From Williamsia sp. 1138 (GTDB lineage Bacteria > Actinomycetota > Actinomycetes > Mycobacteriales > Mycobacteriaceae): a DNA stretch of 64,000 nt. Positions 1,578-64,000 of this stretch are shown here, in pieces. The notes below the pieces were generated by a model. That model did no database searches. It was not told the DNA's origin and saw only the letters and a program-made list of their open reading frames with translations. The first letter of the stretch is position 1. The number at the start of each line of letters is the position of its first letter. Made by a program: the position numbers and the translations under genes. The stretch is from NCBI RefSeq assembly GCF_002095435.2, contig NZ_MJEJ02000038.1:62001-126000 (forward strand), written 5' to 3'.

Positions 1578-1675
1578 GCATCTGCCTAGTGTGACCCAGG
1601 ACACTCACTGCCAATCTGGCAAAAGCCCACTTTCTCCCGCTGGCGACGGCGCCAGACCTTTTCAGGAGGTACATC

Positions 1676-3091
1676 ATGAGCGCTCCTACCGCAGACAATC
1701 TCAGCCACATCGCGACGGTACTGTCCGACGCAGTCATCGACGACCACGACGCCGGTATCTTCCGCGCGAACCGCCGAATCTTCACCGACGAAGACGTCTT
1801 CGAACTGGAGATGAAGCACATCTTCGAGGGCAACTGGATCTACCTGGCGCACGAAAGCCAGCTCCCCAACCCGGGGGACTACTTCACGACCTACATCGGC
1901 AGGCAGCCGGTCGTCATCACCCGCGCCAAAGACGGCGAGATCCACTGCTTGATCAACGCGTGCGCACATCGCGGCGCCATGCTGTGCCGACGCAAGACCG
2001 ACAACCGGATGACGTTGACCTGCCCGTTCCATGGCTGGACGTTCCGCAACGACGGCACCCTGCTCAAGGTCAAGGATCCCGACAACGCCGGCTATCCCGA
2101 GACGTTCGATGTCAACGGATCTCACAATCTGACGAAGGTCGCGCAGTTCGACAGCTACCGCGGCTTCCTGTTCGGGAGCCTGAACCCCGATGTGCTCACC
2201 CTCGATGAGCACCTCGGCGACACCACCAAAGTCATCGACATGCTCGTCGACCAGTCGCCCGACGGGCTCGAGGTGTTGCGGGGTTCTTCGACCTACACCT
2301 TCGACGGCAACTGGAAGGTGCAGGCGGAGAACGGCGCCGACGGCTACCACGTCAGCGCGGTGCACTGGAACTACGCGGCGACGACCTCCCGTCGCGGCAC
2401 GGGGGAGTCGAAGAACGACACCAAAGCGCTCGATGCCGGCGGCTGGGGCAAATCCGGCGGCGGCTACTGGTCGTACCCGAACGGGCACCTGTGCCTGTGG
2501 ACCTGGGCGGCCAACCCCCAGGACCGTCCGCTGTGGGATCAGATGGACGAGCTCAAGAAGCAGCACGGCGATGCCAAGGGCGAGTTCATGGTCAAGGGCT
2601 CTCGCAACCTGTGCCTCTACCCGAACGTCTACCTGATGGACCAGTTCTCCACGCAGATCCGGCATTTCCGACCCATCGCACCCGACAAGACCGAGGTCAC
2701 CATTTACTGCATCGCCCCCAAGGGGGAAAGCGACGCGGCCAGGTCCCATCGAATCCGGCAGTACGAGGACTTCTTCAACGCCTCCGGTATGGCTACGCCC
2801 GACGACCTCGAAGAGTTCCGCTCCTGCCAGCTCACCTTCCGCGCGCAGGCTTCGCCCTGGAACGACATGAGCCGCGGTGCCGAGCACTGGAAGAACGGAC
2901 CGGATCCCGTTGCAGAGTCCCTGGGTATGGACGGCGTCATCTCGTCCGGGCTCAAGAACGAAGACGAGGGTCTGTACCCGGTGCAACACGGTTATTGGCT
3001 CTCGGCAATGCAAACCGCCCTGGACAACGAACGTCTCGCCGAATCCGACGGTGTCGCGTCTCGCAACGGCACAGCCACGAAGGAGGCATGA
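1676..3091 (+). CDS. benA: Benzoate 1,2-dioxygenase large (alpha) subunit, Rieske oxygenase
   Basis: This 471-aa protein is the catalytic subunit of a ring-hydroxylating dioxygenase, expected to convert benzoate to the cis-1,2-dihydrodiol carboxylate. The Rieske [2Fe-2S] ligands are Cys96-x-His98 and Cys116-x2-His119. The mononuclear iron ligands include His225 and His230 in the segment [12 protein letters not shown]. The N-terminal run of about 50 residues ([33 protein letters not shown]) matches BenA of Rhodococcus-like bacteria as I recall it. AGGAGG sits six bases before the ATG. The stop codon touches the start region of benB, and the benABCD order supports the assignment. Toluate or anthranilate dioxygenases are the nearest alternatives. 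Confidence 0.92.
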
Positions 3092-63604: not shown

Positions 63605-63919
63605 TCAGTGAGCCAGTTTCAAACCGATGACAGCGCCGACGATGACGAGTATCAAGACGATCTTCAGAACCGATGCCGCCTCGCTGCCGGAGATCATCGC
63701 GTACGAAACGGTCAGTGCAGCGCCGATCCCCACCCATATCGCGTACGACGTCCCGGTGGGTAGGGTCCGCATCGCATAGGCGAGGCCAAGCATCGAGATG
63801 ACGAGCCCGACGATGAACACGATGGTCGGTGTCAGCTTGCTGAAACCTTCGGACCGACCGAGCGCGGTGGCCCAGACGGCCTCGAAAACACCGGAGGCAA
63901 CCAGTACCAGCCATGCCAT
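63605..63919 (-). CDS. gdx: SMR-family guanidinium exporter (Gdx/SugE-like)
   Basis: This 104-aa, four-helix protein starts MAWLVLVASGVFEAVWATAL with the essential Glu of helix 1 in GVFEAVWA, and has TLPTGTSYAIWVGIGA in helix 3. These are Gdx/SugE-type features rather than EmrE. It exports guanidinium in exchange for protons. GGGAG lies six bases before ATG 63919 and is inside a hairpin below a guanidine-III riboswitch, which agrees with the function. It is single, not the paired SMR type. Confidence 0.88.
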   Translation of the reverse strand: MAWLVLVASGVFEAVWATALGRSEGFSKLTPTIVFIVGLVISMLGLAYAMRTLPTGTSYAIWVGIGAALTVSYAMISGSEAASVLKIVLILVIVGAVIGLKLAH

Positions 63920-63922
63920 GAC

Positions 63923-63945
63923 GTACTCCCTTCATGGGGAAGTAC
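63923..63945 (-). promoter_or_regulatory. Ribosome-site-masking hairpin of gdx
   Basis: On the minus strand GUACUUCCC (63945-63937) pairs with GGGAGUAC (63930-63923), leaving one bulged base. GGGAG is the gdx ribosome site. The 5' arm overlaps the last bases of the riboswitch helix, so the two structures exclude each other. Confidence 0.65.
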
Positions 63946-63983
63946 CGTCTTGTCGGCGTCCGGGTACGGTTTCGATCGTCCGG
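63942..63983 (-). ncRNA. Guanidine-III (ykkC-III) riboswitch
   Basis: The minus strand reads CCGGACGA, then AACCGTACCCGG, then GACAAGACGGTAC. These are the conserved blocks of the ykkC-III/guanidine-III pseudoknot as I recall from the Thermobifida fusca example. CCGG at the 5' end pairs with the CCGG after GTAC, and ACCGT pairs with ACGGT at the 3' end. It lies 22 bases upstream of the gdx start, before a guanidinium exporter gene, exactly where this class is found. Binding guanidine would hold ACGGU and free the gdx ribosome site (ON switch). Confidence 0.85.
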
Positions 63984-64000
63984 GGTGATCATCGTTGATC

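Follow-up and report, generated by a model that had tools for sequence, protein, structure and literature searches.

A variant guanidine-III riboswitch before a probable gdx gene of Williamsia, and a candidate Shine-Dalgarno hairpin that shares bases with its pseudoknot

Results

The locus

The window, by which we mean the whole 64,000-nucleotide stretch of Williamsia sp. 1138 DNA that was analysed, carries at its far end, on the minus strand, a guanidine-III (ykkC-III) riboswitch followed by a short exporter gene. The features are listed below, with helices P1 and P2 named after PMC5696562 and single nucleotides numbered as in the T. fusca riboswitch.

63605..63919, minus: probable gdx gene, encoding a 104-aa SMR-family exporter (open reading frame and family matches)
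63923..63930, minus: hairpin 3' arm GGGAGUAC, containing the Shine-Dalgarno (SD)-like GGAG (folding)
63938..63945, minus: hairpin 5' arm GUACUUCC, the putative anti-Shine-Dalgarno arm (folding)
63939..64000, continuing to about 64005 past the window end, minus: guanidine-III aptamer RF01763 (Rfam)
63944..63948, minus: 3' strand of pseudoknot helix P2, ACGGU (sequence)
63953-63945, minus: block ACAAGACGG (sequence)
63960..63963, minus: 3' strand of pseudoknot helix P1, CCGG (sequence)
63966..63970, minus: 5' strand of P2, ACCGU, including the ligand-contacting G17 (sequence)
63969-63960, minus: block CCGUACCCGG (sequence)
63973..63975, minus: third strand UCG, replacing G9-G10-U11 of T. fusca (Rfam alignment, with a gap at the consensus G)
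63976..63979, minus: ACGA core, A5-A8 (sequence)
63983-63976, minus: block CCGGACGA (sequence)
63980..63983, minus: 5' strand of P1, CCGG (sequence and Rfam consensus)
63984..64000, minus: in-window part of the 5' hairpin GGUGAUCA ACGA UGAUCACC, which extends beyond the window end (locus sequence L001)

Membership of the riboswitch class is confirmed. The preliminary description had proposed guanidine-III from the blocks CCGGACGA, CCGUACCCGG and ACAAGACGG, all of which are present, and had named a covariance-model search as the check; the RF01763 match on the minus strand at 63939-64000 scores 38.3 bits although it is cut by the window end, against a gathering cut-off of 36 bits for this Rfam model, and on the host contig, where the match is whole and runs to about 64005, it reaches 44.9 bits (E 9.6e-8). 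This is the sole gathering-level Rfam match within the 64-kb window, and the match on the contig is the sole one to RF01763 in the 6.08-Mb genome. The coordinates given earlier, 63923-63983, were correct, with the minus strand left unstated. The element is an unremarkable representative of a known riboswitch class, and its gene is a textbook one. The riboswitch was matched in 262 of the 401 genomes drawn from the family and in four of nine genomes of the genus, our own included.

The gene behind the aptamer starts at the ATG at 63919-63917 (minus), and the aptamer ends 19 nt upstream of its frame. Among 20 SMR models the best is the NCBIfam SugE model NF008512, at 90.1 bits and below its cut-off of 126, while the best PDB match of the 104-aa protein is 6wk5 (E 1.1e-22, 83.4 bits), which we take to be Gdx-Clo, with the best EmrE-named chain far behind (E 3.3e-7, 33.8 bits). 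Together with the open reading frame itself, these matches bear out the earlier assignment of a gdx-type gene, and by its sequence relatives the 104-aa SMR exporter is probably gdx, exporting guanidinium. A gdx of at least 85% identity occurs in the same four of nine genus genomes as the riboswitch, and identity to the nearest named Williamsia relatives at the locus is 85-92%; the other five of the nine genomes had neither the riboswitch nor a close gdx, their best paralogue reaching 28-29% identity.

A third strand without the regular-triplex letters

Both interlocked helices are present in the window, P1 pairing CCGG with CCGG and P2 pairing ACCGU with ACGGU over 5 bp, and the letters of C6, G7 and G17, which contact the ligand in the T. 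fusca structure (PMC5696562), are found in the ACGA and CCGUACCCGG blocks. In that structure a regular triplex is made by G9, G10 and U11, and P2 is seven pairs long (PMC5696562); these three letters are absent from the window aptamer, which has UCG instead. We regard the triplex letters as typical of the class rather than defining it, because the RF01763 model accepts a sequence that lacks them.

The substitution follows lineage. UC at positions 9-10 occurs in 17 of 185 distinct leaders, exactly those of the Williamsia-like and Nocardia-like groups described below, where it goes together with a 5-bp P2; G9 is present in 165 of the 185. An exact-pattern search for U9 through 394 genomes of the taxonomic class found four, namely our own, one of a Nocardia-like genus and two others with UGGG. 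The Nocardia-like genus has the UCG variant only in part, as some of its members keep G9; an ordinary G9 aptamer is found at L095-L097, L101 and L106 (genus g22) and in Nocardia seriolae (L080). The window aptamer is a lineage variant with a UCG third strand and a 5-bp P2, a feature that the preliminary description overlooked. Such an aptamer raises the question of whether guanidine can be sensed without the regular triplex.

A hairpin over the ribosome site

Between the aptamer and the gene, GUACUUCC and GGGAGUAC pair exactly around a 7-nt loop. The SD-like GGAG lies within the 3' arm, at 63929-63926 and 6 nt from the ATG, and the last two bases of the P2 3' strand, G63945 and U63944, belong also to the hairpin 5' arm. 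Both the arms and their GU overlap with P2 had been pointed out in advance; they are exact in the sequence and are supported by related lineages. The 32-nt hairpin region folds at -10.5 kcal/mol, and at -5.6 kcal/mol when the two shared pairs are withheld and 6 bp are left. Since only two pairs are shared, the pseudoknot would weaken the window hairpin and not abolish it.

Dinucleotide shuffles of the window linker folded equally well in 26 of 300 cases (p 0.087); shuffles were as good in 8 of 200 for the 32-nt region and in 1 of 200 for the bare 23-nt hairpin. The Williamsia arms show no compensatory change among only four distinct leaders. Because the window hairpin alone is no more than suggestive, the comparative evidence carries it.

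Comparison across leaders

We collected 219 aptamer loci, of which 185 distinct leaders were left when identical ones were dropped, and 179 before an SMR-like start when six more were set aside. Leaders were collected by pattern and not by Rfam, except for 14 loci put to Rfam, all 14 of which were over the RF01763 cut-off. Groups were drawn from the linker letters after inspection, so that the group statistics that follow are not blind. A local hairpin starting within the P2 3' strand and folding at -7 kcal/mol or below was found in 5/5 Williamsia-like, 12/12 Nocardia-like and 15/15 Tsukamurella-like leaders; elsewhere a fold of this stability occurred in 8/14 leaders of the TGTT group, 2/67 other U-closing leaders and 23/66 of the rest. 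The hairpin was better than linker shuffles (p<0.05) in 2/5, 11/12 and 15/15 leaders of the three hairpin groups, and in 4/14 TGTT-type, 9/67 other U-closing and 5/66 remaining leaders (0/12 plus 5/54). The TGTT-type (Prescottella-like) leaders, some of which have hairpins before the start codon, were considered as further support and rejected, as only 4 of the 14 beat their shuffles.

The letters of the arms differ between lineages at shared-strand positions 6-9, and pairing is kept in most rows. A MAFFT alignment of Williamsia and Nocardia leaders misaligned the 3' arms, and pairs were taken from per-sequence folding. When arms were swapped between groups, the window 5' half paired as well with only 3 of 138 foreign 3' halves; the corresponding counts were 0/132 for ten of eleven Tsukamurella arm pairs and 4/132 for the other, 0 to 4 of 131 for the Nocardia-like group, and 23/138 for Williamsia sp. 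1135 (L003), where the effect is weaker. Exceptions are L206, the one of 16 Tsukamurella-type (g30) places without the hairpin, and other Nocardia-type genomes (g22), which have an ordinary aptamer and no hairpin. On this sequence comparison the hairpin starting inside P2 is lineage-specific, most other leaders being without it. Its pairing and register are conserved across lineages while its letters change, which argues against a chance complementarity between a C-run and a purine-rich SD; despite the marginal single-sequence shuffles, that explanation was already disfavoured and is most improbable.

A gdx tree of 81 proteins, covering the named loci and the window, places all 15 hairpin-labelled rows (four Williamsia, four Nocardia and seven Tsukamurella) in one 21-row clade, whose support of 89/85 is below the starred level. 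The hairpin label changes four times on the tree, against a mean of 14.0 for shuffled labels, and none of 500 shuffles was as low. A single origin of the hairpin with later losses is possible on this tree, which has few columns.

Covariation in Tsukamurella

Tsukamurella-type leaders (L005, L008, L015 and others) resemble the window in having an SD hairpin that starts inside the P2 3' strand before an orthologous gdx, but differ in that G9-G10 are kept, P2 has 8-9 bp, six bases are shared and the hairpin folds at -11.5 to -17.9 kcal/mol. In an alignment of 15 of these leaders (13 distinct rows), the hairpin is 97.7% paired, against 30.0-47.5% with slid partners, and two of its pairs carry changes in both arms; its covariation score was reached by 7 of 500 shuffles and its number of double-changed pairs by 45 of 500. 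All of P2 is paired (100%), one of its pairs has changed on both strands, and this pair has a base in common with the hairpin. The resulting three-strand column (P2 5' strand ~ shared base ~ hairpin 3' arm) reads G~C~G in nine of the 15 leaders, A~U~A in two, A~U~G in two and G~U~G in one, and the remaining leader has A~U with no hairpin partner in its fold. Such a column is the pattern that would be expected of a strand with two alternative partners, as suggested here by few events in related species.

Competition energies and access to the SD

Blocking the P2 strand cost the fold downstream of it a mean of 4.8 kcal/mol in Williamsia-like leaders (shuffled tails, 2.2), 7.0 in Nocardia-like ones (2.1) and 12.2 in Tsukamurella-like ones (3.8). 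This cost was significant (p<=0.05) in 1/5, 9/12 and 15/15 leaders of these groups, and in 8/14 TGTT-type, 2/67 and 15/66 leaders of the other groups; for the window itself 24 of 200 shuffles were as costly (p 0.12). P2 duplexes average -5.0, -5.0 and -13.0 kcal/mol in the Williamsia-like, Nocardia-like and Tsukamurella-like groups, close enough to the competition costs to suggest two states near balance, although the two measures, having letters in common, are not independent.

Predicted opening of the SD speaks against such a switch. With P2 blocked, mean SD accessibility in the three hairpin groups goes from 0.10 to 0.33, from 0.22 to 0.27 and from 0.34 to 0.36, and in these folds a clear rise is seen in only two of five Williamsia-like leaders and in none of the other two hairpin groups; it stays mostly flat because the shortened hairpin remains. 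The predicted unpaired SD with P2 blocked is 0.05, 0.03 and 0.42 in three Williamsia leaders and 0.86 in the window, where it rises from 0.014 to 0.862 because an alternative hairpin, CCAUGA/UCAUGG, then pairs the start codon. This alternative hairpin joins 63937-63932 with 63921-63916 (minus), and its 5' part is missing from the other three Williamsia linkers. Folding of whole leaders, in a set of 103 for which the SD picker chose badly in some rows (e.g. L002), likewise gave no general opening of the SD, with 0.52 accessible without and 0.44 with the pseudoknot.

Discussion

Like the T. fusca guanidine-III riboswitch (PMC5696562), the window element is built from the blocks of an H-type pseudoknot, CCGGACGA, CCGUACCCGG and GACAAGACGG, and as in other guanidine-III riboswitches the aptamer precedes an SMR exporter gene, close to the ribosome site. 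It differs from T. fusca in its P2 of 5 rather than 7 bp, in UCG instead of G9-G10-U11 and in a local SD hairpin that shares bases with P2. We infer that the aptamer binds guanidinium, that binding turns gdx on and that control is exerted through the hairpin. In the absence of guanidine, GUACUUCC would pair with GGGAGUAC and hide the Shine-Dalgarno sequence; by taking the last two bases of the P2 3' strand, this OFF hairpin would oppose pseudoknot formation. Once in place between G7 and G17, guanidinium would hold the pseudoknot, P2 would retain the shared bases and the hairpin would lose its two outer pairs, worth about 5 kcal/mol, so that ribosomes might start on gdx more often and its product export guanidinium.

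We think it rather probable that the riboswitch controls the guanidinium exporter at the ribosome site in this way, through competition between P2 and the SD hairpin. Exchange of the P2 3' end as a translational ON switch is the most likely mechanism, and would be strong in Tsukamurella and marginal in the Williamsia window. The preliminary description had called translational ON control readable from the sequence; the SD hairpin and its overlap with P2 stand, but the 6-bp residue at -5.6 kcal/mol leaves little predicted opening of the SD. A broader reading, which we offer tentatively and on balance doubt a little, is that Williamsia and some Nocardia have a trimmed aptamer whose outer P2 letters were ceded to the SD hairpin, and that they share with Tsukamurella an OFF state made by strand exchange at P2.

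The alternative that survives best is control mainly through mRNA stability, in which the pseudoknot, once held by guanidine, stops RNase E from scanning inward from the 5' end, and translation is constantly braked by the SD hairpin. This mode has already been reported for guanidine-III (PMC12186494, citing Richards and Belasco 2021), and of 151 occurrences of a -10-like TANNNT, counted over 194 distinct upstream regions, 98 fall 25-29 nt upstream of CCGG (in L001, TACCAT is 29 nt upstream of it), a position from which transcripts may begin near the 5' hairpin. It would leave unexplained, however, both the hairpin start that is kept inside P2 despite letter changes between lineages and the three-strand column of Tsukamurella, and as the main mechanism we consider it unlikely. 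The stability mode may nonetheless act alongside the SD switch, and perhaps the riboswitch combines such a switch with protection of the mRNA from RNase E.

Less likely again is that P2 is paired in both states, the ligand ordering the third strand only and affecting the SD through stacking or steric crowding. According to the summary in PMC5696562 of published probing of a T. fusca riboswitch, both P1 and P2 are resistant to cleavage whether or not guanidine is present, which counts against melting or exchange of P2 as a general rule, and Williamsia shares two pairs only and keeps a fairly stable residual hairpin. The probed construct came from another lineage, however, and in Tsukamurella the overlap is six bases and the hairpin matches P2 in stability, so that the two cannot coexist there. 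That the real OFF state uses a more distant anti-SD, in the 5' hairpin or a P1 strand, is very improbable. The idea comes from some mycobacterial leaders, in which complementarity of the 5' hairpin to the start region was seen by eye, but the distal duplex of the window does not outdo linker shuffles (p 0.69) and p<0.05 was reached in 0/32 Williamsia-, Nocardia- and Tsukamurella-like leaders and 0/12 of the mycobacterial group.

If competition between P2 and the SD hairpin is correct, strand exchange at P2 would supply the competing structure left unspecified in PMC5696562, whose available text speaks only of 'competing structures', without naming a specific one, and describes the way in which guanidine-II and -III function as 'less well established'. 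A hairpin with conserved register and changed letters would be an explicit OFF state for one clade, in contrast with the control by mRNA stability that another member is reported to use. For guanidine-II (mini-ykkC), translational ON control of guanidine exporters is predicted (PMC12186494); unlike the window element, this riboswitch consists of two hairpins whose loops read ACGR. The ACGA loop of the window's 5' hairpin was considered as a link to guanidine-II and rejected, as folding gave such a loop at only 5 of 219 loci and Williamsia soli has CUGA.

A TetR-like gene, recognised by eye at 1607-2179 (minus) of L001 and past the window end, runs in the same direction and ends 39 nt before the aptamer; this gene, and a lipase-like gene after gdx, are present at 6/6 Williamsia loci (three species, two each) and at 0/5 Tsukamurella, Nocardia and Nocardia-like loci. 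At L086, L093, L107, L108, L112 and L113 the aptamer stands before frames whose first residues are unlike those of SMR exporters. Between Williamsia species the TetR-like protein is 98-100% identical, compared with 85-92% for gdx.
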